Source: a virus. From it: DNA of 64,000 nt. Below, one piece after another: positions 9,013 through 57,558 of the stretch (positions are counted from its first letter, which is position 1; the number at the start of each line of letters is the position of its first letter). The stretch lies in IMG/VR virus record IMGVR_UViG_3300043466_003540, positions 21,270 through 85,269 of that record. One strand, given 5' to 3'. The notes under the pieces are model-generated. The model was not told where the DNA came from, did no database searches, and saw only the letters and a list, made by a program, of their open reading frames with translations. The position numbers were made by a program, and so were the translations under genes.

Positions 9013-9591
9013 ATGAATAACAAAGAGGTATTTTCTAAAATTTACAAAGAAGACCTCTGGCATGGGGGCTCTGGAGCTGGCTCTAAGATAGAAAATGTAA
9101 AAGAGTATGTAGATGTTTTACAAAAATATATTAATAAACCTGAAATAAAAACTGTGCTTGACCTTGGATGTGGGGACTGGCAGTTCTCTAAGTTTCTTGA
9201 TTTATCATCTGTTTCATACCTAGGTGTAGATGTTGTAGAGTCTGTCATAGAGTCTAACAATAATTCTTACTCTGCTTCTAACGTAGAGTTTATTAGTCAT
9301 GACATAACTACTTATGAAATACCAAAAGTAGATTTAATAATATGCAAAGATGTTCTGCAGCATTTATGTAATAAAGATGTGATTGACATACTTGTAAAAA
9401 TTATTAAGTCTTCAAAATTTTCTTTAGTAACTAATGATTTTGCCTCGGCAGATTTAGTTAATAGAGATATTAATAATGGTGACTATAGATGCCTAGATTT
9501 GTCGCTGAGCCCATTTAATTTAGATGTAACTACTCTTTTAGAGTTTGAAAGGGTTGGTTGGAAACCAAAACGTACTGTAACTCTTAACTAA
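9013..9591 (+). CDS. Class I SAM-dependent methyltransferase
   Basis: 192 residues. The start is set at the ATG 2 nt after the epimerase stop (MNNKEVFSKIY); a longer in-frame start at 8965 would overlap the epimerase needlessly. Motif I is VLDLGCGDWQFS (about 52-63), followed by YLGVDVVES as the acidic loop that holds SAM ribose, and DLIICKDVLQHL as motif IV. This is the pattern of small-molecule or sugar methyltransferases. It may methylate a sugar made in this operon. Its 3' end overlaps the opposing gene by 8 nt. Confidence 0.75.
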   Translation: MNNKEVFSKIYKEDLWHGGSGAGSKIENVKEYVDVLQKYINKPEIKTVLDLGCGDWQFSKFLDLSSVSYLGVDVVESVIESNNNSYSASNVEFISHDITTYEIPKVDLIICKDVLQHLCNKDVIDILVKIIKSSKFSLVTNDFASADLVNRDINNGDYRCLDLSLSPFNLDVTTLLEFERVGWKPKRTVTLN

Positions 9592-10450
9592 AATTAATAA
9601 TAGATTTATATTTTTCTGTTCTATTTTTTTCATCTTTTAGATAGTTAAACCACCATCTAGAGGCCCCAAGATTTTCACTTAATGTGAGTACGCCATATAT
9701 AGTTCTATTGTCTATGTACTGAGGTATCCCTTTGTCTCTGGCAGAGTTAGAAAAAACCATGTACTCCCAGCGGTCTGACTCCTCTAGGTAAGTAAGTTCA
9801 GAGAGATGCTCTCTTTTAATTAGGTAGGTGCAGTGAACGCACATGCACTCAATTAGTCCTTTTACCTCTTGATTTAAAATTTTGTAGTAAACATCTTCTG
9901 CAATAATTGAACCAAAGTCATCTACCTTGTCATGATAGTTTGAGTAATACATACTCATGTGACCTTCTCGCTTAGCAGCCTCTACAGGAGTATCAGCATT
10001 TTCACCGAAAGCAACCGCGTATCTTAAAAATGGGGCAACTATAGGTAGGTCTAGTTTGACTAATTCTTTGAGTGTTTCTGGGAACAAAAAGTTATCTATA
10101 TCTACTACAAAGTAGTATTCACAATCTGTGAGTAAGGCTTGGTTCATACTCTCTTGACGAATTTTTCCTAAGACTCTAAACCTTTCACCATTCCAGAAAT
10201 GAACATCGTACTGCTCTACTTTTTGTGGAACATCTTCGCTGTTGTAGATTAGCCCTTTATATTTATCACCGTACTCTTCTATCCACTCTTCTAAAAGCCC
10301 TTTTGTGTTATCTGTGTTGTTATTAGTTCTGATGTAGATAAATATGTTTTCTTTAGGGTAGTCCCAGTTGTTGAGACTTTCTAGAAATAATGGAAGAACG
10401 GCTTCTTTTTGTTTTACAAGAAGGGCTAAAAATACATTTGGCTGAGTCAT
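9584..10450 (-). CDS. Glycosyltransferase (DxD, procollagen-type GT-A)
   Basis: 288 residues. VFLALLVKQKEAVLPLFLESL and NIFIYIRTNNNTDNT form the N-terminal beta-alpha core. YYFVVDIDNFLFPETL (about 104-119) holds the DxDN metal-binding motif. The combination resembles the GT25/procollagen galactosyltransferase type and Anp1-like enzymes, which matters because the same strand carries collagen-like fibres upstream. Last gene of the minus-strand cluster; its ATG overlaps the preceding stop by one base (TAATG). Confidence 0.65.
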   Translation of the reverse strand: MTQPNVFLALLVKQKEAVLPLFLESLNNWDYPKENIFIYIRTNNNTDNTKGLLEEWIEEYGDKYKGLIYNSEDVPQKVEQYDVHFWNGERFRVLGKIRQESMNQALLTDCEYYFVVDIDNFLFPETLKELVKLDLPIVAPFLRYAVAFGENADTPVEAAKREGHMSMYYSNYHDKVDDFGSIIAEDVYYKILNQEVKGLIECMCVHCTYLIKREHLSELTYLEESDRWEYMVFSNSARDKGIPQYIDNRTIYGVLTLSENLGASRWWFNYLKDEKNRTEKYKSIINFS

Positions 10451-11490
10451 TAGATACCTTGCTTATAAAAAACCATATTATTTATTAATCTGGCATCCGT
10501 TGGATTTCCTATAAGTGCTTTTTCTCCATACTCTACTGCCTTTGCTTTATCACCTAGGTAATGAGCAGATAGCGCTCTCATATCATCTAGCATCCAATTC
10601 CATAGAGCTTCAGATGATAGGTAGTGATTAGTTGGTTGGCATGTAGCAACTAGTTTGCAAGTTTCCCACACCCCACCCCAATCACTTTGTTCATAGTAGC
10701 AACGTACTTTTTCATAATACGCCTCACCGCATGGGTCGATAGAAATTGCTTTATCTGCCCACGTGTGTGCTTCTTCAAGTCTTCCTAAATTTCTGCATGC
10801 TTCAGATGCAAATCTACATACTGCTGCACGTTCCACGAACCAGTCTTTACTAAAATCACTAACTTTTTGAGCGCTACTAATTACTAAATCCCACATCTTG
10901 TAATAGTAATATTCACGACACAGATATACCCAAATTCGATGGTCTTCACCAAACTCTTTACTTGCAGCAATTAACATTGTCATATATTGCCCGCGAGATT
11001 TTGTATTATCTGGTTTGTGGTACATCTTGGTAGGAATAGTGCAACTCATCAAAGGTGTATCAAGGGAAGGAACAAATACTTCATGAATAGGATATTTCCA
11101 ATACACACCATCTCTAGCGTGCAAGCGAGCACCTAGCCAAGTATGACCAGTGTCAAAATCACACCAACCTTTGTTAGCCCCTGGCGCCCAGTGCTCTTTT
11201 ACTTTTTTAAAAAAGTCTTTATCTACTGTTTCATCTAAATCTAAACTTAGACACACATCTATATCTGCTGGTAATAAACTCTGAGCAGTATTTCTTGCAA
11301 CATCAAATCTCCAAGGCTTTACACTTATTTCATAGACAATAATCCCATTGCTTCTTAATATCTCTACTGTTTTATCTGTAGAGCCTGTGTCACAGACTAA
11401 TCTAAAGTCTGCATCTTTAGTGGTGTCTGCCCAACGCTGAGCGTGCTTCTCCTCGTTCAGGGCAATAGCGTATGCGGCAACTTTAATCAT
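10450..11490 (-). CDS. Family-2 glycosyltransferase with TPR-like C-terminus
   Basis: 346 residues. The first 110 are a GT2 domain: VAAYAIALNEEKHAQRW, LVCDTGSTDKTVEIL and the DxD site LSLDLDETVD (near 93-102). Residues about 185-335 are tandem helical pairs (EAHTWADKAISIDPCGEAYY, KAVEYGEKALIGNPTDA), typical TPR repeats that could dock protein partners. A GT2-TPR architecture fits glycosylation of a protein. A TAAATT hexamer 6 nt before the ATG may be its own leaderless promoter. Confidence 0.75.
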   Translation of the reverse strand: MIKVAAYAIALNEEKHAQRWADTTKDADFRLVCDTGSTDKTVEILRSNGIIVYEISVKPWRFDVARNTAQSLLPADIDVCLSLDLDETVDKDFFKKVKEHWAPGANKGWCDFDTGHTWLGARLHARDGVYWKYPIHEVFVPSLDTPLMSCTIPTKMYHKPDNTKSRGQYMTMLIAASKEFGEDHRIWVYLCREYYYYKMWDLVISSAQKVSDFSKDWFVERAAVCRFASEACRNLGRLEEAHTWADKAISIDPCGEAYYEKVRCYYEQSDWGGVWETCKLVATCQPTNHYLSSEALWNWMLDDMRALSAHYLGDKAKAVEYGEKALIGNPTDARLINNMVFYKQGI

Positions 11491-11523
11491 AAGCCTAATT
11501 TATCATGATAAATTTATAAATGT

Positions 11524-12207
11524 CTATAATTCTGGATTGCGTATAAGATCTTTTGGGAATATCATTACTTTCTTATGATGAGCAACTTGAACTCTAGGAT
11601 CTAAAAATATTTTATATCCAGCTTCTTGAGCCTTTCTGCACCAAGAAAAATCTTCAGCAAGTGGGACTAAAAACTCTTCTCCGTTACTACCATGTATTTT
11701 TGAAAAATGAGTCTCAAACCAAGGTCTTTTTATATTTTCAAAAACACCTTGTTTTACACAAATAAACCCAAATCCAGCAGATGATATCTCACGATATTCT
11801 TGTTCTGTAATAATTTTATAAGCAGAAATTTCTTGTCCTGCAGGAGTGTCTATTGCAAACATAGGAGTACCAAATTGATCTATATATATTCCTGAAACTA
11901 TATCTTTATCTGAACTATACATATTCATAAAATCAGCTATAGTCCAAGATATATCAGAATCTATCCAAAAGAATTTATCATATGTAACTTCTCCTCTAAC
12001 TGGAGATTGATTAAATGCGTCTAAAAATTTAGAACCCATTGCTGTAGCTTCTCTAGCAGTACTTACAGCAGAAGAGTACTCATTTAAAAATAAATAGCTA
12101 ATTCCAACGTCTTTAAGATAAGTTATTGTTGAAATTAAACTTTTTACATACTCTGCCTCCATTGATCTTCCTGGAGTTGCAATAAGAACATTAATGTGTT
12201 TTTTCAT
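11524..12207 (-). CDS. GT-A-type glycosyltransferase, paralogue of the 13.7-kb gene
   Basis: 227 residues. It opens INVLIATPGRSMEAEYVKSL; KFFWIDSDISW (about 84-94) is the DxD site, and LAEDFSWCRKAQEAGYKIF plus QVAHHKKV near the end are the acceptor-side acidic and His motifs. The paralogue at 13736-14413 shares VLIATPG, TEYSS/NEYSS, WIDSDI, GFGF, VKQG, IKRPWF and the closing HHK. Two near-copies in one cluster suggest successive additions of like sugars. ATG with AGG 8 nt upstream. Confidence 0.7.
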   Translation of the reverse strand: MKKHINVLIATPGRSMEAEYVKSLISTITYLKDVGISYLFLNEYSSAVSTAREATAMGSKFLDAFNQSPVRGEVTYDKFFWIDSDISWTIADFMNMYSSDKDIVSGIYIDQFGTPMFAIDTPAGQEISAYKIITEQEYREISSAGFGFICVKQGVFENIKRPWFETHFSKIHGSNGEEFLVPLAEDFSWCRKAQEAGYKIFLDPRVQVAHHKKVMIFPKDLIRNPEL

Positions 12208-12242
12208 GTATTTTACCTAAACTATTAGTTAATAACATAGAA

Positions 12243-12761
12243 CTAATTACCAGTAAACTTTGCGATAAATGCTCCTGTAAATTGAAAAAGTTTATAGTCA
12301 ATAATACTATGAAACTTTTCTAAGACTAGCTCAGAGTTCCAGTCTTCTTCCACATGAATCTCATATGGATTATTATTGAAAGCCCCTTGTGGCATATGAG
12401 TTATAGGTATAGATATTATCGCGTACTTTGCTTGTTTAGAACATCTATTCCAAAGTTGAATAGCATCATTTGCTGACATGTGCTCTAAAACATCACCAAA
12501 AATTACTATATCATAATCAAAATTATCGTATACTCTTACGTCTTTTTGATAAACATTATCATATATTGATTTTAAATTAAAATGATCTATATATGGTTGC
12601 CAAACTTCTATTGCATCAATAACAATGTTAGAATTTATAAATGATTTTATAAATTCTCCATAAGTTCCTTCTCCAGCACCAACGTCTAAAATATTTTTAG
12701 GTTTAATCTGCTTAATTTTCTTAAGCAGCCAACTTTTATTTTCTGGGTGTGAAGAAGGCAT
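12243..12761 (-). CDS. Class I SAM-dependent methyltransferase
   Basis: 172 residues. NILDVGAGEGTYGEF (about 19-33) is motif I. DAIEVWQPYIDHF gives the ribose-binding acidic residue, and DIVIFGDVLEHM (about 81-92) is motif IV of the Methyltransf_11-like group. Short but complete. It is embedded among glycosyltransferases, with its ATG overlapping the previous stop by one base, so a sugar or glycan methylation role is likely. The target is not determinable. Confidence 0.75.
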   Translation of the reverse strand: MPSSHPENKSWLLKKIKQIKPKNILDVGAGEGTYGEFIKSFINSNIVIDAIEVWQPYIDHFNLKSIYDNVYQKDVRVYDNFDYDIVIFGDVLEHMSANDAIQLWNRCSKQAKYAIISIPITHMPQGAFNNNPYEIHVEEDWNSELVLEKFHSIIDYKLFQFTGAFIAKFTGN

Positions 12762-13681
12762 TATTTAACCTGATCTGGAAGAGATTCTAATATCTTAATC
12801 CACTCATATTTTCTAGTTTCCCAGCTATAGTGTTTATTAAAAAAATCAGATTGCTCTTTAATAAATTCTTGATTTTCAAGTGACCAATAATTATTTATAG
12901 TCTCTTCTAGTGCCTTGGCGTAATTTGCAATAAGAATTTTGGCATCTGCTTGAATTGGAACTAGCTTTGCATATATAGAACCTGTTTCTGGTAATCCTCC
13001 AATGTTTGTTGTAACTAAGTTACATCCAGCTGCGCCTGCTTCTATCATGGAAAGACAGGCTGTCTCTTCAAAAATACAAGGATAAGCAAAGATATGAGCT
13101 TTTTGAAGAGCTAAGATAACATCTTTATGTGGAGCATATCCGATATAGTTAACATTTTTCATACTGCGAGCGCGATCAAAAAGTTGCTCATATTTATTAC
13201 CTTCATACTCTACATATTCTTGGCCATATATCTGAGTAGAAGAATAAATATCTAATTCTATATCATCTCTGTTTAAAAGCTCAAAAGAGTCAAGTAAAAC
13301 ATCTAAACCACGATATGGCATAGAAGTATATATAAGTTTTATTTTTTCTTTTGGCTTTTCTACATAACTAATTGATTCTATTGCATTTCTAACTACATAC
13401 GCATTTTCTAGATGAATTTGATGAATATAACGAAATTTTTCATGCTGCCAGTGTGAGACATACACATATGCATCTATTAATCTATTAAAATATTTATCTT
13501 TAATTCCTTGAACAACACTTTGATTCGCGGGGATATGCTGCCATAAGATATTGCGCTTATCCATATCAACTAAATCTCTATAACACTTAGAATTAATGAT
13601 GTTTACATTATACTTATCAAGATCAACATATTTTGCTAGGTTTTCTAGCATAATATCTTCTCCACCTTTAGGGTCAATCAT
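12761..13681 (-). CDS. GT-B glycosyltransferase (GT4-like), short N-terminus
   Basis: 306 residues. The acceptor half begins unusually late: MIDPKGGEDIMLENLAKY already contains the Gly-Gly loop, so the first beta strand of a normal GT4 is missing. An in-frame stop immediately precedes the ATG, ruling out a longer product. The donor half is intact: KLIYTSMPYRGLDVLLDS, FAYPCIFEETACLSMIEA and GCNLVTTNIGGLPET are the usual retaining GT4 blocks, with E-x7-E near 225-233. Either an N-terminal truncation or a compact lineage. Confidence 0.75.
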   Translation of the reverse strand: MIDPKGGEDIMLENLAKYVDLDKYNVNIINSKCYRDLVDMDKRNILWQHIPANQSVVQGIKDKYFNRLIDAYVYVSHWQHEKFRYIHQIHLENAYVVRNAIESISYVEKPKEKIKLIYTSMPYRGLDVLLDSFELLNRDDIELDIYSSTQIYGQEYVEYEGNKYEQLFDRARSMKNVNYIGYAPHKDVILALQKAHIFAYPCIFEETACLSMIEAGAAGCNLVTTNIGGLPETGSIYAKLVPIQADAKILIANYAKALEETINNYWSLENQEFIKEQSDFFNKHYSWETRKYEWIKILESLPDQVK

Positions 13682-13735
13682 CTAGTTTCCTCTCTAAACT
13701 TTAGTATTTATTATTTACTTAAAATAACTTTAGTG

Positions 13736-14413
13736 CTACTTTGGCCACTCAATTTTAACTTGCTTGTGATGATTTACTCTAACAAGTGGATCTACCCATA
13801 TAGTAACTCCCATCCTGTGAACTTTTTCACACCAGGAAAGATCTTCTCCCATTAAAGGAAATTTATACTCTACAGCACCAGTTTCTTCATTTATTACTTC
13901 TACTTCCGTTTGTGAAAACCAAGGACGCTTTATTTTTTCAAATATACCTTGTTTTACAGCTAAAAATCCAAAACCAACTCCTCTTACAGCAAAAGGTTTT
14001 TTTCTTGACATTATTTCTTCTTTTGTCATCCCTCCACGTAAAACCTTTGGGTACACTGTCACTTCTTCATTTGCAAGCATGTAACAGCCAGAAACAACTT
14101 CAACGTCATTACTAAGTAACTTATGTACGTCCTCTGGTTCCCACTCGATGTCGGAGTCGATCCAAAGTATTCGATCGTAACTATATAATCCATGGCCTGG
14201 ACGAGAGTCATTAGGATCTTGATACCCTAGTCCTCCGATAGTTTTCTCTCTTGCGTCAGCAACTAAAGATGAGTACTCAGTTAAAAAATTCCAAGTAATT
14301 TGGTTTTGATCAAAAAAGTAAATAGTTTTTGCAAGACTACGCACATAAGCTTGTTGCATTGAGTGCCCAGGTGTGGCTATAAGTACATTAAAATGAGGTA
14401 TTTGTGTGTCCAT
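13736..14413 (-). CDS. GT-A-type glycosyltransferase
   Basis: 225 residues from the ATG at 14413 (MDTQIPHFNVLIATPGHS). This start leaves a 4-nt gap to the preceding gene and has GGAGG 12 nt upstream; a GTG at 14443 would overlap that gene. RILWIDSDIEWEPEDV is the DxD site, LMGEDLSWCEKVHR the acidic acceptor motif, and RVNHHKQVKIEW the terminal His pair. Clear paralogue of the gene at 11524-12207. Substrate unknown. Confidence 0.7.
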   Translation of the reverse strand: MDTQIPHFNVLIATPGHSMQQAYVRSLAKTIYFFDQNQITWNFLTEYSSLVADAREKTIGGLGYQDPNDSRPGHGLYSYDRILWIDSDIEWEPEDVHKLLSNDVEVVSGCYMLANEEVTVYPKVLRGGMTKEEIMSRKKPFAVRGVGFGFLAVKQGIFEKIKRPWFSQTEVEVINEETGAVEYKFPLMGEDLSWCEKVHRMGVTIWVDPLVRVNHHKQVKIEWPK

Positions 14414-14417
14414 AAAT

Positions 14418-15173
14418 TTAGTTATCCTCCGATATATTTCCACCTTTAAAAGTGTAAGTTCCTACATGGTCTAAGACTATTGTTGGGTCAACGTATACTT
14501 TTCCACCAATATTTTGCCAACGACGACAAAACGTGTAGTCCTCGCTGAGATACCTTCCATTATCAATCATGGTATCAAAAATAGCGTATTTTGACATTCC
14601 TTTCTGAGACTCTTCATCATAAACCTCTGGAATATAGCGTGTTTCAGGATAACTTTTTATAAGTTTTTCTATAACTGGTCTTTTAATAAGCATAAAACCA
14701 GTAGCACCATCATATATTTCTAATAATCCATTTTCAGTTGTGCTAGAAGTACTAGTTAACTTATTTACACCTGAAGAATAGCGAATTGCATTAGACTGTA
14801 GCGTTTTAACATCATTTGACGCAGAGCTAGCCATTTTTTGCCAATCTATCATTTTTGTAGGATACGCTCCAGTAATAACGTCTTTATTCATGCTAATCAT
14901 CTTAAATACATCGTCTGGATTAAAGTTTATATCAGCATCAATAAACATTAGGTGGGTTGCTGGAGTTTGTAGAAAAGTAAAAACAAGATCATTTCTTGCT
15001 CTTGTGATTAAACTTTCATTAGAGCGTGTAAAGTATCCTAACTTCATTCCATACTGTGCTGACTTAGAAACTAGTTGAAGTAAGGACTGTACGTATTTTT
15101 CATTTACTAGTCCACCGTAGCACGGTGTCGCGACAAACAAAGTTGTACTACGTATAGTGTCCAATTTTAGCAT
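14418..15173 (-). CDS. GT-A-type glycosyltransferase, first gene of the cluster
   Basis: 251 residues. TLFVATPCYGGLVNEKYV is the nucleotide-binding start, HLMFIDADINFNPDDV (about 85-100) the DxD site, and SEDYTFCRRWQNIGGKVYVD near the end the acidic acceptor motif, followed by ILDHVGTYTF. It is related to its two downstream neighbours but more distant. A TACTAT hexamer lies 6 nt before the ATG with no ribosome binding site, so the glycosyltransferase operon may have its own leaderless promoter directly behind the propeller genes. Confidence 0.7.
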   Translation of the reverse strand: MLKLDTIRSTTLFVATPCYGGLVNEKYVQSLLQLVSKSAQYGMKLGYFTRSNESLITRARNDLVFTFLQTPATHLMFIDADINFNPDDVFKMISMNKDVITGAYPTKMIDWQKMASSASNDVKTLQSNAIRYSSGVNKLTSTSSTTENGLLEIYDGATGFMLIKRPVIEKLIKSYPETRYIPEVYDEESQKGMSKYAIFDTMIDNGRYLSEDYTFCRRWQNIGGKVYVDPTIVLDHVGTYTFKGGNISEDN

Positions 15174-15212: not shown

Positions 15213-18029
15213 TTAGGTTTTAATCCAAGGAGTGTATCCTACTGGAGCCTCTATAGGAGTAAGTACATGGTAAGTTTTAGGGATAGATTTGCTGTTTTTA
15301 GCCATGTAAAGTGACTGGTTTGATCCTCCTGCGATAATCCAAGAGTTATTCCCATACGCTACCCTAGAAACAGGCTCAAGTGTGTCCGCGCCTGCGTACG
15401 AGTATACCTGTGTTGTCCAGTTTATTCCATCTAAAGACGTTCTTACTCCTCCATTTAAGCTTACCAAAATAAATATTCCATCTCCGTAGGCTATTGAAGA
15501 AATACCTAACGTTATAGGAATGTTAGAGTTTTGCGTGTTCCACGTCACACCGTTATCCGTTGAGGTCCTTAGCGCTCCTCCTGCACCTCCTGCGGCCCAC
15601 ACACCATTTCCATATGCAACCGAGCTAATCGCACTGGTTCCAAACTGTGAAGTTTGCGTATTCCAGTTAAGCGCGTCAGTTGAAGTTCTTAACGTTCCAC
15701 TAGCACCCACCGCAATGAAAGTTCCATTTCCATAAGCAACTGCACATATAGTACTTGAACCAAATTGTGACGTCTGCGTATTCCAGTTAAGCGCGTCAGT
15801 CGAGGAGTGCAGCATACCTTGTATTCCTACAGCAACCCATACTCCATTTCCATACGCGACTGACTGGACAGCTGATGTGCCAAAGTTAGGTCCATAAGAT
15901 CTCCAGTTTATAGTGTCAGTTGAGGAGCGCAGTTTTCCACTCGCACCTGCCGCAACAAAAATTCCATTTCCATATGCAACCGAGTTAATCCCACTTGTTC
16001 CAAACTCTGAAGTTTGTGTATTCCAGTTTATAGTGTCAGTTGAGGTCCGCAGCGTTCCCCCCGCGCCTCCCAAGACCCACGTTCCGTTTGCATACGCAAC
16101 GGCTACGATCGAACTTGTTCCAAACTGTGACGTTTGCGTGTTCCAGGTCACACCGCCGTTTGTTGAAGTTCTTAACGTTCCTGCGCTTCCTCCCGCAACC
16201 CACGTGCCGTTACCATACGCAACAGCACTAATTCCACTTGAACCGCCAAACTCTGAAGTTTGCGTATTCCAGTTAAGCGTGTCAGTTGAGGTCCGCAGTG
16301 TTCCTGCAAATCCTGTCGCTACCCACACACCACCTCCATACCCAACTGCATCGATAGTAAGAGTACTTCCAAAATTAGTACCGTATCCTATCCAAGTTAT
16401 AGCATTGTTAGTTGATGTTCTTGTAGTTCCACCACTTCCTCCAAGTAACCAAGTTCCATTTCCGTACGCAACACCAAGAATATCACTTGTACCAAAGTTA
16501 GGAGTCTGAGTATTCCATGTTACACCGTTATCAGTTGAGGTCCGTAGTCCTCCAGAAAAAGACGCTGCAGTCCACACACCATTACCATAAGAAACGGCGT
16601 TTAAACTACTTGTAGTATTAGAAGTACGCGTGGTCCACGTAACACCATCAGGTGAAGTTCTTATCGCTCCTCCTGCTCCTGTCGCTATAAAGACACCATT
16701 ACCATAAGAAACGGCGTTTAAACTACTTGTAGTATTAGAAGTACGCGTGGTCCACGTAACACCGTTATTCGTTGAAGTTCTTATCGCTCCTCCTGCTCCT
16801 CCCACTACAAAGACACCATTACCATATGCAACAGAGCGAATATCACTGGTTCCAAACGTTGACGTCTGCGTATTCCACGTCACACCGTTATTCGTTGAAT
16901 TTCTTAACGCTCCACCCGCACCCACCGCTACCCACGTGCCGTTGCCATACGCAATTGCACTAATTATACTAGTTCCAAACTGTGAAGTTTGCGTATTCCA
17001 GTTAAGCGTGTCAGTTGAGGTCCGCAGCGTTCCCCCTGCGCCTCCTACAACCCATACTCCATTTCCATACGCGACTGCATAAATAATACTTGAACCAAAT
17101 TGTGACGTCTGCGTATTCCAGTTAAGCGCGTCAGTTGAAGTTCTTAACGTTCCACTCGCACCTCCAGCTACCCAGACACCGTTGCCGTACGCAACCGCAG
17201 ATATGGCAGTTGCACCAAACTGATTTCCATGAGCGTTCCAAACAGTTATGTTTGTTGAAGTTCTTAACGTTCCTGCTTGTCCTCCAGCTACCCACGTGCC
17301 GTTTCCATACGTGATAGCACGAATTCCAGTTGTTCCAAACTGTGACGTTTGCGTGTTCCAGTTTATTGCATCAGTAGACGTTCTTAATACCGCCGAGTCT
17401 CCTCCCACTACAAAAACTCCATTACCATAGGCAACTGAAGAAATTGAAGTTCCACCGAACTGTGAAGTTTGCGTATTCCACGTCACACCGTTATCCGTTG
17501 AGGTCCTTAGCGCTCCTCCTGCGCCTACCGCAACATAAATTCCATTACCATAGGCAGTTGAAAAAATAGTACTTGAACCAAAATTAACTCCGTAATTAAT
17601 CCAGTTTACCGCATTATCTAGTGATGTTTTTGCATTTCCTCCGTCTCCCACCAAAAGCCAAGCTCCATTACCATATGCAGCAGAACAAATTCCATTTGCA
17701 CCGAACTGTGAAGTTTGCGTATTCCACGTCACACCGTTATCCGTTGAGGTCCTTAGCGCTCCTCCTGCACCTGCTGCTATATATGTCCCATTACCATAAG
17801 CAACAGAATTAATAATACTTAAGCCAATAGTATGATTAACTGAAGACCAAGTAGAGTAATAAGGAATTATTTTACCAAGTCTAGAATTTGAGTTAATAGT
17901 TTGAGTAGTACTTAAATTTAACCAGCCTGGTCCTGGTGAACCTAATGAACTTTTTCTATATATAACACTACCAGTCTTGTACACTACTTCTTTTTTAGAA
18001 TCTTGATTATTCATTTTATTTTCATCCAT
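15213..18029 (-). CDS. Asp-box propeller protein, 21 repeats
   Basis: 938 residues. After an N-terminal stretch of about 70 (YKTGSVIYRKSSLGSPGPGW) come 21 repeats of 39-44 residues, each with AYGNG-x-W/F-x-A-x-G, then G-L-R-T-S-T-D, and the Asp-box S-x-D-x-G-x-x-W (STDNGVTW). Asp-boxes mark beta-propeller blades as in sialidases and Ycf48-like proteins. 21 equals three times seven. The protein ends in TPWIKT. No sialidase catalytic residues are recognisable, so it is more likely a receptor-binding or decorative fibre than an enzyme. Its start overlaps the 3' end of the next repeat gene by 19 nt. Confidence 0.75.
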   Translation of the reverse strand: MDENKMNNQDSKKEVVYKTGSVIYRKSSLGSPGPGWLNLSTTQTINSNSRLGKIIPYYSTWSSVNHTIGLSIINSVAYGNGTYIAAGAGGALRTSTDNGVTWNTQTSQFGANGICSAAYGNGAWLLVGDGGNAKTSLDNAVNWINYGVNFGSSTIFSTAYGNGIYVAVGAGGALRTSTDNGVTWNTQTSQFGGTSISSVAYGNGVFVVGGDSAVLRTSTDAINWNTQTSQFGTTGIRAITYGNGTWVAGGQAGTLRTSTNITVWNAHGNQFGATAISAVAYGNGVWVAGGASGTLRTSTDALNWNTQTSQFGSSIIYAVAYGNGVWVVGGAGGTLRTSTDTLNWNTQTSQFGTSIISAIAYGNGTWVAVGAGGALRNSTNNGVTWNTQTSTFGTSDIRSVAYGNGVFVVGGAGGAIRTSTNNGVTWTTRTSNTTSSLNAVSYGNGVFIATGAGGAIRTSPDGVTWTTRTSNTTSSLNAVSYGNGVWTAASFSGGLRTSTDNGVTWNTQTPNFGTSDILGVAYGNGTWLLGGSGGTTRTSTNNAITWIGYGTNFGSTLTIDAVGYGGGVWVATGFAGTLRTSTDTLNWNTQTSEFGGSSGISAVAYGNGTWVAGGSAGTLRTSTNGGVTWNTQTSQFGTSSIVAVAYANGTWVLGGAGGTLRTSTDTINWNTQTSEFGTSGINSVAYGNGIFVAAGASGKLRSSTDTINWRSYGPNFGTSAVQSVAYGNGVWVAVGIQGMLHSSTDALNWNTQTSQFGSSTICAVAYGNGTFIAVGASGTLRTSTDALNWNTQTSQFGTSAISSVAYGNGVWAAGGAGGALRTSTDNGVTWNTQNSNIPITLGISSIAYGDGIFILVSLNGGVRTSLDGINWTTQVYSYAGADTLEPVSRVAYGNNSWIIAGGSNQSLYMAKNSKSIPKTYHVLTPIEAPVGYTPWIKT

Positions 18030-21000
18030 CCATATACACCATTACCGAGATATGTATTAGGTGTTTTAAAAGTAGTTAATATTTTTGTTGTTGCAATTAC
18101 GCCCAGTCCAACTACAACCCATGCATTATTACCATAAGCTGCATCGTAAACTATCGAATTTATATTATTTAATGATATCTGCGTATTCCAGTTAAGTGCA
18201 TCCGTAGAAATCATAATTCCTTGACTGTTTATTCCTCCTAATAACCACTTATTATCTGCGTATGTTAAAGCATAACTGGCTATTTGTCCTGATGTATACG
18301 TTTTTGGGATAGACCAGTTTATAAGGTTAGTAGAAGTTTGTATAGTATCATCTGCGTTAATTGAAGCTACTGCCCAAATTCCATTTCCATACGCTATTTT
18401 AGAAATTCCTGTTACTAAATAGTTTAAAGTTGTTTGCGTGTTCCACGTCACACCGTTATCAGTTGAGGTACGTAATCCTCCACCTACACCTCCAAAAACC
18501 CACGTGCCGTTTCCGTAGGCAACAGAGCATATAGTTGCGCTGTAATTAGATGTCTGTGTTGTCCACGTCACACCGTTATCCGTTGATGTTCTTACACTTG
18601 CTGAACTACCGACAGCAATCCACGCGCCATTACCATACGCAACAGCACATATGGCTGTAAAAAATGTAGAAGTTCGCGTAGTCCATGTAATACCATTTTC
18701 TGATGTTCTTAAAGCTGTACCCGCGCCTACAGCAACGAAAGTTCCATTTCCATAAGCAATTGAAAAAATAGTACTTGAACCAAACTGTGAAGTTTGCGTA
18801 TTCCAGTTAAGTTCATCTGTTGACGTACGCAGTACTCCTGATGCACCTCCAGCTACCCAGACACCGTTGCCGTACGCAACCGCACATATATTTAGTCCAC
18901 TTCCATCATTTAAAAATTTTAAATTTGCTAAAGAAGAATTAGAAAGTTTATTAGAAAAATTACTATCAACTTTAACTACGCTTCCATCAAGTTTTACCCA
19001 TGAACTTCCTGGTGAGTCAATACCAAATACTATTTCACCTGTATCATAGTAGTTTTTTCTTATATTTTTATTCATTGTGTCCATCCAACAATAGATAGAT
19101 TTGGGTCTATAGGTTGATTATAGCCCACTAATAAGTCAGATCTGTACAAGTGCCCTTGAGTAAGTGCTACCCATGTATTATTTCCATAGGCAACTGCGTT
19201 AAAGCTGCTTGAGCCAGTATAATGTTGTGTATTCCATGTCACACCGTTATCCGTTGATGTTCTTATCTTATTGACAGGCTCAGCACTACTTACAATTGTC
19301 CATAAGCCATCTCCATAGGCAACTGATTGAACTTTACCATTTTTAAATCCTGATTCTCTAGTTGTCCAATTAACTGCATCACTTGAAATACTAATTGTAC
19401 CAAATGTATCTCCTCCTGCTATCCACACGCCATTTCCATATGCAATAGAGCGAATATCACTGGTTCCAAACGTTGACGTCTGCGTATTCCACGTCACACC
19501 GTTATTCGTTGAGGTCCGCAGTGTTCCACCTGCGCCTACCGCTGTCCACGTGCCGTTACCATATGCAACAGAGCGAATTATACTAGATCCAAACTGTGAT
19601 GTTTGTTGCGTCCAGACTATTAGATCAGTTGAAGTTTTTAAAGTTCCACCATCACCAGCTGCTACGTACACTCCATTGCCGTAGGCAGAAGACTGAATAG
19701 TAGAAGATCCAAATTGAATTCCATAAGCATACCAATTGAGTGCATCAGTAGATGTTCTTAACGCTCCACCCGCACCTGCTGCAGCAAAAATTCCATTTCC
19801 ATATGCAACCGAGCTAATCGCACTGGTTCCAAACTGTGAAGTTTGCGTATTCCAGTTAAGCGCGTCAGTTGAAGTTCTTAACGTTCCACTCGCACCTCCA
19901 GCAACCCAAATTCCATTACTATAAGTAATTGACTGGATTACAGCTCCACCAAACTGTGAAGTTTGCGTATTCCATGTTATCGCATTATCAGTTGAGGTCC
20001 GCAGCGTTCCCCCCGCGCCTCCCAAGACCCACGTTCCGTTTGCATACGCAACAGCACTAATTCCACTTGATCCAAAGTTAGAAGTTCGTGTGGTCCAAAA
20101 AATTGAGTCAGTAGAAGAAAAAAGTTGACCAGAGCTGTTACCAGCTAAAAATATTCCATTACCATAAGATACAACGCATGTACTAGGAGAAGAAGAAAAA
20201 TTTGAACCATGAGTGTACCAGTCTATAGCGTTACTTGAAATTCGCGTTGCAAAGTTAGCAGAAATTATAAATATACCATTTCCATAAGCAGATGCTGTTA
20301 TGGTGCTACTACCTAATGGAGATGTTCTGGTAACCCATGTTAGTCCATCAGTAGAAGTTCTATAATTTCCACTAGACGCAGCAAGAAAAAATATTCCATT
20401 ACCATAAAGTAAAGAGTTAATATTGTTAGCACCGTAGTTAGATGCCTGCGTAGTCCACGTAACACCGTTATCCGTTGATGTTCTTATGCTGTTAGTTCCA
20501 CCACTGGTAAATCCTCCTGCTACCCATGTGTTATTACCATAGGCAACTTTATCCAAACTACTTGTAGTATTAGAAGTACGCGTGGTCCACGTAACACCAT
20601 CAGGTGAAGTTCTTATCGCTCCACCTATACCCACCGCAACAAAAATTCCATTTCCATATGCAACCGAGCTAATCCCACTTGAACCAAATTGTGACGTTTG
20701 CGTATTCCAGTTAAGCGCGTCAGTTGAAGTTCTTAACGTTCCACTCGCACCTCCAGCTACCCAGACACCGTTGCCGTACGCGACTGACTGGACAGCTGAT
20801 GTGCCAAAGTTAGGTCCATATTGATACCACGTCACACCGTTATCCGTTGACGTTCTCATCATACCACTAGGTCCAGCAGCTACGAATAAACCGTTACCAT
20901 ATCCGATAGAGCTAATCACACTTGTACCAAAACCAGTCTGTGTTGTCCACGTCACACCGTTATCCGTTGATGTTCTTATCATTCCTCCATTTCCTCCAGC

Positions 21001-23345
21001 TGCCCACGTGCCGTTGCCGTACGCGACTGACTGGATTGCAGTTGTAGTATTAGAAGTACGCGTGGTCCACGTAACACCATCAGGTGAAGTTCTTATCGCT
21101 CCTCCTGCTCCTCCTGCTATAAAGACACCATTTCCATATGCAACCGAGCTAATCGCACTGGTTCCAAACGTTGACGTCTGCGTGTTCCAGGTCACACCGC
21201 CGTTTGTTGAAGTTCTTAACGTTCCTGCTTGTCCTCCAGCTACCCAAGTGCCGTTTCCATATGCAATAGCGTTGATTCCAGTTGTTCCAAACTGTGAAGT
21301 TTGTGTATTCCAGATCACACCGTTATCCGTTGAGGTCCGCAGTGTTCCACCTGCGCCTACCGCTGTCCACGTGCCATTCCCATACGCAACCGCACATATA
21401 GTACTTGAACCAAAGTTAGAGGTCTGCAGTGTCCATGAAATTCCATCAACAGAGGTTCTTATTGAAGTTCCTGAAGTTGCCACCCAGACGCTGTTTCCAA
21501 AGGCAGAATATGTTACTCCACTTGGATTATGTCTTCTTTGCCAGTAAATTGAATCACTTGACGATATTAAGGCACTTGAAGTTCCAGCTACCCACGTGCC
21601 GCTACCGTATGCAACAGCGGATAAAGCTGCAGACGAGCCTAAGTCTATGGTTCCGTTATTTCTCCAAGTAGTACCATCATCAGTTGACGCTTGTATCACT
21701 CCACCCGTAATTGCAGCAACAAAAGTTCCATTACCAAAACTTAATTGAATAGCTTGCTGCCCATTTAATCCAGCACTTTGCGTATCAGTCCAAGTAGCAC
21801 CGTTGTCTGTTGATATAACGTATTGTCTATCACCTGTGCCTGCATGTGAAACTAGCCAAACTCCATTTCCATATGCAATACTACATATACCTGTTCTATC
21901 TACTCCAACTAAATTCCAGTTTTGTGCACTATCTGTTGAGGTCCGCAGAGCTCCGGCACTGTACCCTGCTATCCACACGCCATTTCCATACGCAACTGAA
22001 TGAATAGTAGATGAGCCAGAACCAAGTTCTTTCCATTTTACAAGATTTCCAGTTGATATAGCCATAACACCTGAAGTTCCACCTACAACCCACAGTCCAT
22101 TTCCATATGCAATTGATTGTAAACCACTTGAACCTGAAAGTTTTATCGGAGGCATCGTTGAAACCCAGGTAACAGCGTTTGTAGATGTGCGCATAGATGG
22201 AGCGGAGCCTCCTAGCACAGCAAAAGTTCCATTTCCATACGTAATAGATGTAAAAGTAGTTGTAGAAAAAGAGTTAGATGAAACCCACACTACGCCTGGG
22301 TTAGTTGATGATGAAATTGTACCTCCGTCTCCCGCCGCAACAAAAATTCCATTACCATACGCAATTGAAATGATACCGCTTGAACCAAACTGTGACGTTT
22401 GCGTGTTCCAGTTTATTGCATCAGTAGACGTTCTTAACGTTCCTGCGCTTCCTCCTGCAACCCAGACACCGTTGCCGTACGCAACGGCTGCAATAGCAGT
22501 TGCACCAAACTGTGAAGTTTGCGTGTTCCATGTTAGTGCATCAGTAGACGTTCTTAACGTTCCTGCGCTTCCTACCGCAGCAAAAATTCCATTTCCATAT
22601 GCAATGGATTGAATTAAAGTTGAACCAAACTGTGACGTTTGCGTGTTCCAGTTTATTGCATCAGTAGACGTTCTTAACGTTCCTGCGCTTCCTACCGCAG
22701 CAAAAATTCCATTTCCATATGCAACCGAGAAAATAGTAGTTGAACCAAACTGTGAAGTTTGCGTGTTCCATGTTAGTGCATCAGTAGACGTTCTTAACGT
22801 TCCACTTGCACCCACCGCGACCCACGTGCCGTTTCCGTATGCAATTGAAGTTATGGCAGTTGTGCCAAAGTTAGATCCGTATCCTCTCCACGTCACACCA
22901 CTATCAGTAGATGTTCTTACTGCTCCACTATTACCTCCTGCAACCCAGATACCATTACCGTAAAAAATAGAGTTTAAAGTACTTGTATTTGAAGTAGTTG
23001 GTTGACTCCATGTGTATAAATTATCTGAGCGTAACAGTATTCCAAGTACACCTGTCGCTACCCACACACCATTTCCATACGCGACTGCATGAATACCTGA
23101 AGAAGTATTAGTTCCAATTGCACTCCATGTAGTCTCTACAGTTGATACTCTAAAGAATCCAGAAGCACCTGCCGCTACAAAAACGCCATTTCCATATGAA
23201 AGTGTATTAATGTTATTAGCGGTAGAAGTATAAGATGATGGAACATTCCATACTGTCCCACCGTTAGTTGATATGAATAAACTTCCTTGTCCCCCACCAG
23301 CTACCCACACTCCGTTTCCATATGTAACAGAAGATAGTACTTGAG
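15290..23345 (-). repeat. Array of 63 coding repeats of about 120 bp
   Basis: Three adjoining genes carry 63 units of 115-135 bp in the same orientation. Many are nearly identical at the DNA level: the strings specifying TSTDALNWNTQTSQFG and AYGNGVWVAGG recur repeatedly, within and between genes. Others are strongly diverged, so the array looks shaped by unequal recombination and gene conversion. Units per gene are 35 (19072-23580), 7 (18011-19084) and 21 (15213-18029). Confidence 0.9.
18011..19084 (-). CDS. Asp-box propeller protein, 7 repeats
   Basis: 357 residues. About 65 N-terminal residues contain YYDTGEIVFGIDSPGSSW, like the start of the 938-residue neighbour. Exactly seven AYGNG/Asp-box repeats follow (the sixth and seventh degenerate to TYADN and AYGNN), and the tail is GNGVYGWMKIK. 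Seven repeats is what a single closed seven-bladed propeller needs. The gene overlaps both neighbours (13 nt upstream, 19 nt downstream), so the three are translated as a unit. Probably a minor tail or fibre component. Confidence 0.75.
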   Translation of the reverse strand: MDTMNKNIRKNYYDTGEIVFGIDSPGSSWVKLDGSVVKVDSNFSNKLSNSSLANLKFLNDGSGLNICAVAYGNGVWVAGGASGVLRTSTDELNWNTQTSQFGSSTIFSIAYGNGTFVAVGAGTALRTSENGITWTTRTSTFFTAICAVAYGNGAWIAVGSSASVRTSTDNGVTWTTQTSNYSATICSVAYGNGTWVFGGVGGGLRTSTDNGVTWNTQTTLNYLVTGISKIAYGNGIWAVASINADDTIQTSTNLINWSIPKTYTSGQIASYALTYADNKWLLGGINSQGIMISTDALNWNTQISLNNINSIVYDAAYGNNAWVVVGLGVIATTKILTTFKTPNTYLGNGVYGWMKIK

Positions 23346-23580
23346 TCTTACTTATTGTTTCTCTAGCCCAAAGCTGGCCTGTTGCTACAGAAGACTTACT
23401 TGATCTTTTACTAAAAGTATATGACTCATCAACAGAAGACAATGAAAAATCCTCGGGTTCAAATCCTTTAAGAAAAAAGCGTAAATAACCTTGTCTTTCA
23501 TTCTGTAAAGTTGTAGGGTTATACTCACCGTTAACTATTTCGGTGTTATTATTAAATCCATCTTCCCTACCATAATTCAT
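19072..23580 (-). CDS. Asp-box propeller protein, 35 repeats
   Basis: 1502 residues, the largest gene in the window. A unique head of about 85 residues (with GYLRFFLKGFEPEDFSLSS) is followed by 35 AYGNG/Asp-box repeats and the tail SIVGWTQ. Thirty-five is five times seven. Repeats near 5-8, 17-23 and 28-32 are nearly identical; repeats 9-16 and 24-27 are diverged. Cys occurs only in a few repeats at the same position (TICAVAYG), so disulphides are unlikely. Expected to be a long bead-string adhesin on the virion. ATG start. Confidence 0.75.
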   Translation of the reverse strand: MNYGREDGFNNNTEIVNGEYNPTTLQNERQGYLRFFLKGFEPEDFSLSSVDESYTFSKRSSKSSVATGQLWARETISKTQVLSSVTYGNGVWVAGGGQGSLFISTNGGTVWNVPSSYTSTANNINTLSYGNGVFVAAGASGFFRVSTVETTWSAIGTNTSSGIHAVAYGNGVWVATGVLGILLRSDNLYTWSQPTTSNTSTLNSIFYGNGIWVAGGNSGAVRTSTDSGVTWRGYGSNFGTTAITSIAYGNGTWVAVGASGTLRTSTDALTWNTQTSQFGSTTIFSVAYGNGIFAAVGSAGTLRTSTDAINWNTQTSQFGSTLIQSIAYGNGIFAAVGSAGTLRTSTDALTWNTQTSQFGATAIAAVAYGNGVWVAGGSAGTLRTSTDAINWNTQTSQFGSSGIISIAYGNGIFVAAGDGGTISSSTNPGVVWVSSNSFSTTTFTSITYGNGTFAVLGGSAPSMRTSTNAVTWVSTMPPIKLSGSSGLQSIAYGNGLWVVGGTSGVMAISTGNLVKWKELGSGSSTIHSVAYGNGVWIAGYSAGALRTSTDSAQNWNLVGVDRTGICSIAYGNGVWLVSHAGTGDRQYVISTDNGATWTDTQSAGLNGQQAIQLSFGNGTFVAAITGGVIQASTDDGTTWRNNGTIDLGSSAALSAVAYGSGTWVAGTSSALISSSDSIYWQRRHNPSGVTYSAFGNSVWVATSGTSIRTSVDGISWTLQTSNFGSSTICAVAYGNGTWTAVGAGGTLRTSTDNGVIWNTQTSQFGTTGINAIAYGNGTWVAGGQAGTLRTSTNGGVTWNTQTSTFGTSAISSVAYGNGVFIAGGAGGAIRTSPDGVTWTTRTSNTTTAIQSVAYGNGTWAAGGNGGMIRTSTDNGVTWTTQTGFGTSVISSIGYGNGLFVAAGPSGMMRTSTDNGVTWYQYGPNFGTSAVQSVAYGNGVWVAGGASGTLRTSTDALNWNTQTSQFGSSGISSVAYGNGIFVAVGIGGAIRTSPDGVTWTTRTSNTTSSLDKVAYGNNTWVAGGFTSGGTNSIRTSTDNGVTWTTQASNYGANNINSLLYGNGIFFLAASSGNYRTSTDGLTWVTRTSPLGSSTITASAYGNGIFIISANFATRISSNAIDWYTHGSNFSSSPSTCVVSYGNGIFLAGNSSGQLFSSTDSIFWTTRTSNFGSSGISAVAYANGTWVLGGAGGTLRTSTDNAITWNTQTSQFGGAVIQSITYSNGIWVAGGASGTLRTSTDALNWNTQTSQFGTSAISSVAYGNGIFAAAGAGGALRTSTDALNWYAYGIQFGSSTIQSSAYGNGVYVAAGDGGTLKTSTDLIVWTQQTSQFGSSIIRSVAYGNGTWTAVGAGGTLRTSTNNGVTWNTQTSTFGTSDIRSIAYGNGVWIAGGDTFGTISISSDAVNWTTRESGFKNGKVQSVAYGDGLWTIVSSAEPVNKIRTSTDNGVTWNTQHYTGSSSFNAVAYGNNTWVALTQGHLYRSDLLVGYNQPIDPNLSIVGWTQ

Positions 23581-23599: not shown

Positions 23600-23980
23600 T
23601 TAAAAGTCTCCACCAAAAGCTATAACGTTAAAAGATTCTGAATTATTAGTTGTTGCTCTAAGTGAATGCCCAGAAGGTAACATAAAATTATTATAGGTAG
23701 ATGTGGATGAAAACACAGCTTGAGTAGTAGATGGAGTAACAGCAGTCACCATAACTTCTTGAAGTAAATAGTATGTTGAACCAGTGTATACCCATAGACG
23801 TACTACTCCCGCGGTTGTAGTTCCCGTCGAGACGATGTTGATCTCGTCGATGCGTGAGCCGCTTGCTCCTGCGGTGAACACGGTACCTACGTTGGTAGGT
23901 GAGGTACGCGAAGTGTCGGCTGTTGCAATATTAGCTGCCGAGACGCGAACAGTCGCGGCAAAATTTGGTGCTGCTGCCAT
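23600..23980 (-). CDS. Small structural protein, tail or fibre associated
   Basis: 126 residues, beta rich with many Thr, Ser and Ala. It begins MAAAPNFAATVRVSAANIAT and includes TGTTTAGVVRLWVYTGSTYYLL near the middle, ending AFGGDF. The pattern is that of a small immunoglobulin-like or jelly-roll virion protein. It sits between the collagen-like fibres and the propeller proteins with 19-25 nt spacing, in the same direction. AAAGGAAAA precedes the ATG. Exact role unknown. Confidence 0.6.
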   Translation of the reverse strand: MAAAPNFAATVRVSAANIATADTSRTSPTNVGTVFTAGASGSRIDEINIVSTGTTTAGVVRLWVYTGSTYYLLQEVMVTAVTPSTTQAVFSSTSTYNNFMLPSGHSLRATTNNSESFNVIAFGGDF

Positions 23981-24005: not shown

Positions 24006-25298
<1,293 letters not shown>

Positions 25299-25364
25299 AT
25301 TACTCTCTTACTTCAGCAAAAGGATGGCACTACTATACTACAAATTTGAACTTTCTATATAAAA

Positions 25365-25398
25365 AAACTGCCCACCTTCGTGAAAAGATGGGCAGTTT
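25365..25398 (-). terminator. Intrinsic terminator between two collagen-like fibres
   Basis: Arms 25365-25378 and 25385-25398 form a 14-bp stem with a 6-nt loop. The single non-Watson-Crick position is a G-U wobble only in minus-strand RNA, where the stem is followed by a run of seven T. It ends transcription after the 712-residue fibre gene; the next fibre needs its own promoter (TATAGT upstream of 25298). Confidence 0.85.
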
Positions 25399-25414
25399 CT
25401 ACCTAATATTTAGG

Positions 25415-27562
<2,148 letters not shown>

Positions 27563-27655
27563 TCATTTCACTCGAGTGGGATGATTCCCAAAGCCAATTT
27601 TACCCTAAATAAAAAAGGTGATTAAAATAAAATTAAACTCTAAATTCTTATTAAA

Positions 27656-29845
<2,190 letters not shown>

Positions 29846-29861
29846 TTTTTAACAGCTCCTT

Positions 29862-32162
<2,301 letters not shown>

Positions 32163-55923: not shown

Positions 55924-57558
55924 TTAGAGGGTTATAGTTTCTGCAGAACCCGCACCATTTGAAGCAGTAAATGTTTCAGTAGTCATAGTTGGTGAACCTG
56001 CGTCTGCAGTTAAAGTTGGTGTAGTGGTATTAGTTGTTATTGACGTTTCTGTTGAAGTTGCAGATGCATAATTAAATCCACGACCACCTACTGTAATTGA
56101 GCCTGTTTTTGTTCCGTCTGTTGGAAGAGCAAAAAGTAAAGTATCATAACTTGTTCCACCAGAAAGTTGATTTTGCCAACTTCCTACAAGTATACGACCT
56201 GTTGAATCAATTGCAATACCGTAATTTGAAACACTTCCTGATACCGATGAAGAAATTCTACGAGTCCACTGATTAGTGCCAGAAGAATTATACTTTGTTA
56301 CAAAACCTGCTAATTGTTGGCTAACACCCTTTGATGCATTAACTGTAGTATTTGTACCTGATATATAAATATTTCCTGAAGAATCGCCGTAAATACCGCC
56401 GTATGGATAGTCACTATTAGCATTTGCAGAACCTAAAGCATCAACTAGTTTTTCCCACTGTAGTGTTCCTGAAGAATTAAACTTTGCAATGTAAGAAAGA
56501 CCTCCACCGCCTTGTCCAGCAACATACACGTTGTTTGATGAATCAGCCCATACCCCATAGTACTCAAAGTAACTTCCTCCTGGGTCACTTCTAAGGTTTG
56601 ACCAAGAGATAGTTGTTAAATCAGCAGATATTTTTGCAAGAAAACCTCTCATAGGATTACCATTATTACCACGTCCAGCAACAAGAATACTTCCAGAACT
56701 ATCTATAAATAGTCTATTTGGGTTTATAAACCACGATGTTGTGTAACCTTGTTTTGCTAACGTTGTTCCTGAAGAGTCTATTTTATATAACGTTAGTCTA
56801 TTAAAAGAGCCATCGTAGTATGAACCAGCAGCATAAACGTTATTTGAAGCGTCAACTGCTAACCCAATTATAGATGATGAGTTTCCAGGACTTCCAACAA
56901 TTGTTCTTGTCCACTGCATTACTCCAGAAGAATTAAGTTTTGTAACATAACCTTTATCGCCAGGTGTTCCTGGAGTAATTGTTGAGGCAAGACCAGTAAT
57001 ATAAACATCACCAGTTGATGAAACTGCTATTTGTTGTACATCATAATATTTGAGGACACCAGAATTAGTAAGTTTTTTCTGCCATTGCAGTGTTCCTGAA
57101 GAATTATATTTTGCTATACCAATACCCATTACAGCACCAACGTTAGTATAACTGCTGTATCCAATATAAGAATTACCAGAAGAATCTGATGTTACATAAC
57201 CTGTCTGTTCCTCCTCGGAACTTCCGTATATAGCAGCAGCATAGTAACCAACTGGTGACACAGAACTTGACGCAGAAGAAGCGCTTGAACTAACTCCGTA
57301 GGATGTTGTAGCGCTAACTGTAAATGTATACGCGGTTCCAGTAGTTAACCCAGTTACGGTAATCGGAGACGTTGTGTTAGAACCAGTTATTCCACCAGGA
57401 GATGATGTTGCAACATAGGTAACTGTGCCACCTTTGCCTGTGTATGAAGGAGCGGTGAATGCCACGGTCGCACTGGTGGACCCAGCTGCTGCGACAGCGC
57501 CAATCGTCGGTGCTCCTGGCTTTCCACCTCCGCCAGAGACGGATCCGAGAATTGGCAT
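55924..57558 (-). CDS. MPILG fibre with Fn3 domain and 7-repeat SBBP propeller
   Basis: 544 residues. N-terminal docking motif MPILGSVSGGGGKPGAP; one Fn3 domain (about 17-105: ATVAFTAPSYTGKGG, GLTTGTAYTFTVSAT); then seven SBBP-like propeller repeats with D-x-S-x-[GN]-x-[VI]-Y signatures (DSSGNSYIG, SSTGDVYITG, DASNNVYAAG, DSSGSILVAG, DSSNNVYVAG, DSSGNIYISG, DSTGRILVGS). A C-terminal tail with GSPTMTTETFTASNGAG resembles the Gly-rich fibre ends. Probably a receptor-binding adhesin. It follows a small coiled-coil partner gene by 30 nt. Confidence 0.8.
   Translation of the reverse strand: MPILGSVSGGGGKPGAPTIGAVAAAGSTSATVAFTAPSYTGKGGTVTYVATSSPGGITGSNTTSPITVTGLTTGTAYTFTVSATTSYGVSSSASSASSSVSPVGYYAAAIYGSSEEEQTGYVTSDSSGNSYIGYSSYTNVGAVMGIGIAKYNSSGTLQWQKKLTNSGVLKYYDVQQIAVSSTGDVYITGLASTITPGTPGDKGYVTKLNSSGVMQWTRTIVGSPGNSSSIIGLAVDASNNVYAAGSYYDGSFNRLTLYKIDSSGTTLAKQGYTTSWFINPNRLFIDSSGSILVAGRGNNGNPMRGFLAKISADLTTISWSNLRSDPGGSYFEYYGVWADSSNNVYVAGQGGGGLSYIAKFNSSGTLQWEKLVDALGSANANSDYPYGGIYGDSSGNIYISGTNTTVNASKGVSQQLAGFVTKYNSSGTNQWTRRISSSVSGSVSNYGIAIDSTGRILVGSWQNQLSGGTSYDTLLFALPTDGTKTGSITVGGRGFNYASATSTETSITTNTTTPTLTADAGSPTMTTETFTASNGAGSAETITL

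Follow-up and report, generated by a model that had tools for sequence, protein, structure and literature searches.

The window analyzed here is a 64,000-nucleotide stretch of an 85 kb virus record (IMG/VR IMGVR_UViG_3300043466_003540), and its minus strand carries three adjacent genes whose products are arrays of Asp-box/Ycf48-like beta-propeller blades. P0003 (19072..23580; 1502 amino acids) has an N-terminal part of 80 residues and 35 blades (array 19075-23340). It is followed by P0002 (18011..19084; 357 amino acids), with 64 N-terminal residues and the 7 blades of one propeller (array 18014-18892), and by P0001 (15213..18029; 938 amino acids), with 71 N-terminal residues and 21 blades (array 15216-17816). 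Blades were counted in two ways, by a regular-expression split inspected by eye and by an iterated blade hidden Markov model (HMM). Both gave 35, 7, and 21, as an earlier note on this DNA had reported for these genes. The last blade of each protein lacks the Asp-box and the D strand and was counted via its A-B hairpin, which has the YGNG turn. According to the iterated HMM, the blades are spaced 36-45 residues apart all along the arrays. The 9 kb propeller region recurs without a base change in three other IMG/VR contigs and could be resolved by 150-bp reads because its longest exact repeat is only 98 bp.

The blade alignment describes a four-stranded unit of about 40 residues with the Asp-box S-x-D-x-G-x-T-W. 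AlphaFold2 modeling of P0002 together with 34 relatives (a 35-sequence alignment) gave one propeller with seven A strands, at a predicted local distance difference test (pLDDT) score of 80.9 that exceeded 90 along most of the array. The best PDB match of this model in Foldseek was Ycf48 (5ojr, E 9e-13, template modeling score 0.75 over the whole target), and the family profile, searched against PDB sequences, found Ycf48 and HCF136 (E 2.8e-11 to 8am5_S). The blade type, the ring of seven (in the P0002 model), and the homology to Ycf48 expected of a seven-bladed Asp-box propeller were thus all found, and the proposal that the repeats are Asp-box propeller blades is borne out by both the structure and the profile searches. 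In the single-ring relatives, ring closure looks to be of the velcro type: blade 1 is preceded by a D-strand half-blade at the N terminus (HMM positions 28-40), and the final blade comprises strands A-C only. Structure prediction, which the earlier note had named as a check, was informative for P0002; the model of P0001, built from a single sequence, reached a pLDDT of only 45. That model was all-beta and gave weak solenoid-like matches (all E >= 3), as might be expected if the arrays formed a beta-solenoid or another non-propeller fold. We consider such a fold very improbable, since a model of this confidence is uninformative, the same blade modeled with its relatives folds as a propeller (pLDDT >90) that matches Ycf48, and the sequence profiles agree.

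The chance that three freely varying counts would all be divisible by seven had been put at 1/343. This makes somewhat too much of the coincidence, since a protein with one ring owes its seven blades to the fold; 35 and 21 alone are informative, and the figure is about 1/49. Homologues settle the rule of seven far better than such arithmetic. The relatives are proteins of other viral contigs, which carry L numbers here. Exactly seven HMM blades were found in 41 of the 52 complete open reading frames with a single array, and in the five with six blades a degenerate seventh is present at one end. Longer arrays comprise 14 (L046, twice), 7+7 (L084, L100), 21 (L094), and 28 blades (L042) by HMM, and L065 and L086 have 21 and 35, respectively, once degenerate blades are added by eye. 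The operon itself, recognized by a preceding small gene and trailing glycosyltransferase-like genes, reads 35/7/21 in the window, 28/7/7 in L042, and 7/7/7 in L131, with at least 7/7 at the end of L043; related phages therefore differ by 7, 14, 21, or 28 blades.

Blade number might instead drift one blade at a time, producing mixed six-, seven-, and eight-bladed rings, in which case the multiples of seven in the window would be luck. An orthologue of P0001 (L050:366-1103) has only four blades, flanked by conserved N- and C-terminal parts, blades exchange sequence at a sub-blade scale (see below), and a fungal protein of 15 blades has been predicted to form one seven-bladed and one eight-bladed ring (PMC9218822). 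The short L050 contig begins within a run of near-identical blades, and its count of four may result from assembly collapse; if not, the rule of seven is genuinely broken there. However, sevens dominate many unrelated contigs, the clearly countable long arrays have 14, 21, 28, or 35 blades, and the orthologous operons differ by whole sevens, which makes drift by single blades a poor explanation that we judge improbable. The expectation that homologues would have multiples of seven held for most of the single arrays and for the clearly countable long arrays and failed in L050. Together with the P0002 model, these counts uphold seven as the closed unit, and the best reading of the counts and of the seven-blade homologues is the one put forward earlier: the proteins comprise five, one, and three complete propellers.

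How the chain is distributed among the rings is suggested by a variant of the D strand. Most D strands read W-[NT]-T-[QR]-T, and 12 blades have a glycine four residues after the tryptophan (W-x-x-x-G), which we refer to as marks. P0002 has none, P0001 has four, and P0003 has eight, totals that equal 2(k-1) for k = 1, 3, and 5 rings. In P0001, the marks lie in blades 2 (17589..17603), 5 (17226..17240), 12 (16380..16394), and 16 (15891..15905), where blades 2 and 5 would be entries with blades 16 and 12 as their respective exits. In P0003, the putative entries are blades 2 (23113..23127; partner blade 30), 4 (22876..22890; partner blade 11), 12 (21904..21918; partner blade 26), and 14 (21652..21666; partner blade 21), and the putative exits are blades 11 (22021..22035), 21 (20815..20829), 26 (20206..20220), and 30 (19720..19734). 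All 12 are on the minus strand. The glycine is rare in relatives, occurring in 21 of 666 blades. In marked blades, the Asp-box turn is mostly intact, and the linkers at the presumed crossings are as long as ordinary D-to-A linkers. In scans of GTDB, the P0001 query retrieved no relative, and the two matches to a motif search both lack blades.

We took each mark as a point where the chain passes between rings and required that ring segments do not cross and that every ring has exactly seven blades. Under this rule, the marks divide P0001 into segments of 2, 3, 7, 4, and 5 blades, for which 2+5, 3+4, and 7 is the unique solution, with the rings {1-2,17-21}, {3-5,13-16}, and {6-12}. The innermost ring would thus consist of blades 6-12 (16359..17207). 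Around it would lie a middle ring (15873..17570) of blades 3-5 (17208-17570) and 13-16 (15873-16358) and then an outer ring (15216..17816) of blades 1-2 (17571-17816) and 17-21 (15216-15872). The segments of P0003 (2, 2, 7, 1, 2, 7, 5, 4, and 5 blades) likewise group uniquely, as 2+5, 2+1+4, 7, 2+5, and 7, giving {1-2,31-35}, {3-4,12,27-30}, {5-11}, {13-14,22-26}, and {15-21}. Two of the five predicted rings are continuous, blades 5-11 (22009..22857) and blades 15-21 (20797..21627). The latter would be enclosed by a ring (20185..21891) of blades 13-14 (21628-21891) and 22-26 (20185-20796). Blades 3-4 (22858-23097), 12 (21892-22008), and 27-30 (19702-20184) would form a further ring (19702..23097), and blades 1-2 (23098-23340) and 31-35 (19075-19701) the outer one (19075..23340). 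All these ring segments are on the minus strand. When uniform ring sizes of 5, 6, 8, and 9 were tried on the marks, none gave a parse.

Such a parse is seldom obtained by chance. With the same number of marks placed at random, it succeeds in 1.05% of cases for P0001 (exactly 51/4845) and in 0.031% for P0003. When 97 usable column/residue features were scanned, the W+4 glycine was the sole one that parsed in either protein. When blade order was shuffled and any of 175 features (residues plus residue classes) was allowed, some feature parsed both proteins in 5 of 48,000 cases; a first shuffle run had given 1 of 3,000.

The earlier note had pictured the proteins as strings of beads, with the rings following one another as blades 1-7, 8-14, 15-21, and so on; the marks would then be rim-to-rim contact patches or topologically meaningless. 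This arrangement needs no chain crossings, and it clearly exists among the relatives: L046 has a linker after blade 7, L084 and L100 are 7+7, and blades 7 and 14 of L094 are degenerate. The two long proteins of the window give no hint of it. A linker was sought in their arrays at blades 7|8, 14|15, and the further multiples of seven, and none was found; blades 7 and 14 of P0001 are neither degenerate nor marked, and in P0003 only two of the eight marks fall at multiples of seven (blades 14 and 21). No sequential seven-blade phase was found in the blade typicality of the window proteins. A string of beads also leaves unpredicted the number of marks, their pairing modulo seven, and the fact that the pairs never cross, whereas the marks parse uniquely as nested rings. 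We therefore regard the bead string as rather unlikely here, and P0001 and P0003 probably have rings inserted into rings.

Relatives provide two further candidates for nesting. In the 28-blade protein of L042, blades 1, 10, and 19 have a short C strand and blades 8, 17, and 26 have a C-D insertion; if these are the crossings, the unique parse is {2-8}, {11-17}, and {20-26} plus an outer ring {1,9,10,18,19,27,28}, that is, three satellites on one hub, which six marks placed at random would allow with a chance of 0.17%. The 14-blade array of L045 and L047 is interrupted by linker insertions behind its blades 2 and 9, which would place {3-9} inside {1,2,10-14}. In the same two contigs (L045:7789-13105 and L047:4214-9497), seven-blade rings whose blades are near-identical appear to interrupt degenerate blade-like stretches of another type, much as if the rings had been fitted as modules into an older propeller-like scaffold that extends over two adjacent genes. 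We rejected the possibility that an outer degenerate ring shared by the two genes reflects one frameshifted protein, as the genes are separate, with their own stop and start.

Taken together, the reading that we favor, and hold to be probable by a modest degree, is that these are virion-surface proteins of five, one, and three closed Ycf48/Asp-box seven-bladed propellers, nested in the two large ones. The chain would build part of a ring, cross to a neighboring ring, complete the neighbor with any further rings inside it, and return to finish the first, so that each entry would be matched by an exit seven or a multiple of seven blades on. For k rings, 2(k-1) crossings would be needed, and the blade number would be a multiple of seven wherever an insertion falls. 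At a crossing, which may be placed either in the D-A or in the C-D connection, two rings would touch rim to rim, with the D strands of the entry blade and of the last blade in the inserted ring next to each other across a two-fold axis. Each of the paired D strands would hand the chain to the center of the opposite ring. The W-x-x-x-G variant would be carried by the D strand just before each crossing, probably because the crossing strands come together at the rim-to-rim contact, and the same mark would occur at entry and exit because the crossing D strands are, in this proposal, equivalent by two-fold symmetry. A closed unit of seven blades added between any two blades would leave both rings complete, and counts would therefore stay multiples of seven. 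On the specific claims that the 35-blade chain threads a tree of five propellers, that the W-x-x-x-G strands are a paired bracket code, and that whole rings can be added between any two blades with the rule of seven intact, we are evenly divided.

Several points weigh against nesting. The rule was partly formulated with hindsight: variants with an aromatic residue and glycine were noticed first in P0001, and the definition was subsequently broadened to cover P0003. The shuffle test allows for the choice of feature and not for every choice made. With the single-sequence model of P0001 uninformative, ring membership rests on sequence marks. Seven-blade orthologues mapped onto P0001 and P0003 did not place the outer ring, because the blades are homogenized. 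When other phages were searched for the marks, only copies of this one were returned, and so no independent relative. The L042 marks were picked by eye, and an automatic single-feature scan found no feature there that parses; L045 and L047 are close relatives with two marks only, which makes a weak case on its own.

The supposition that recombination survives only when whole propellers are gained or lost was also part of the earlier note, and it fared unevenly: relatives do change in sevens, but recent growth has not proceeded by copying seven-blade blocks. We rejected such block duplication because blades seven apart are no more alike than others and because the identical DNA tracts, which connect all three genes, are at most 98 bp, shorter than one blade, and have no clear preference for shifts of seven. 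Sequence is exchanged at a sub-blade scale while the blade count stays fixed. In both long genes (15213-18029 and 19072-23580), blades that lie 10-11 apart show raised similarity, which rings of seven do not explain.

On the minus strand, the gene order is four collagen-like genes, a 126-residue gene, P0003, P0002, P0001, and glycosyltransferase-like genes. The four collagen-like fibre genes (24006..32162; Pfam Collagen) are consecutive and have the pattern G-x-T/N-G-A-T; in Actinomycetia phage DSL-LC01 (L039), a propeller gene likewise adjoins collagen-like genes. The small 126-residue gene (23600..23980, minus strand) is in the same place in L042 and L131 and marks the syntenic operon. Right after the propeller genes, seven minus-strand genes (9584-15173) include glycosyltransferases, a TPR/glycosyltransferase protein, and a methyltransferase-like protein; they might glycosylate the fibres, and similar genes come after the propellers in L042, L043, and L050. 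The collagen-like neighbors suggest a virion-surface location for the triplet products, and the neighborhood as a whole (the four collagen-like genes, the small conserved gene, and the glycosyltransferases) suggests that they act as adhesins. Elsewhere in the window, 55924-57558 encodes a 544-residue protein that has no PHROG match but contains an SBBP beta-propeller repeat (Pfam) together with an fn3 domain, another propeller-type protein of this phage from a different family. The terminase is nearest to that of DSL-LC01 (76% identity) and also resembles those of Microbacterium phages, so that an actinobacterial host is likely for this tailed phage.

Ycf48/HCF136, the top match in both the structure and the PDB profile searches, is likewise an Asp-box propeller of seven blades, each about 40 residues long, but it is a single, non-repetitive ring, whereas the phage proteins appear to have up to five rings and have near-identical blades. 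The DSL-LC01 homologue is annotated as a photosystem II assembly factor. The context in our window is one of phage structural genes beside collagen-like fibres, and no photosystem genes were noticed there; the propeller proteins seem to be homologues and not orthologues of Ycf48, and a photosystem function would not be implied. Among phages, BNR/Asp-box structural proteins (cyanophage gp7-like baseplate initiators, phrog_8700, and DUF6242) share the blade family and the setting among tailed-phage structural genes, but where counted they mostly have one or two rings, and the window proteins are unusually long and homogeneous.

Highly repetitive propellers, defined by a median blade identity >60%, are known across superfamilies, the Asp-box group included, and examples with 15 and with 47 blades have been reported (Pereira and Lupas 2022, PMC9218822). 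Like those proteins (WRAP and others), P0001 and P0003 have many near-identical blades, continuing beyond one ring. What sets the points of closure in arrays that exceed one ring is an unsolved question; besides the 15-blade case described above, the 47-blade array could not be resolved in that study, and a search of its text turned up neither phages nor nesting. If the marks are junction brackets, the ring membership of long arrays would be readable from sequence and directly testable. A phage could then enlarge an adhesin in quantized whole-propeller steps at arbitrary positions while its blades still exchange sequence.

Searches of the open-licence literature turned up no account of nested phage propellers. 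A parallel in topology is offered by DDB1 and CPSF160, in which three seven-bladed rings are formed by one chain with a non-linear topology, bP3 of CPSF160 being formed from three discontinuous regions (PMC5760199). Those are eukaryotic, non-repetitive proteins with WD40 rings of diverged blades and a helical domain, they do not reach five rings, and they have no known junction mark in common. Rings from discontinuous segments are also what the unique nested parse, drawn from the marks in the sequence, predicts for P0001 and P0003.

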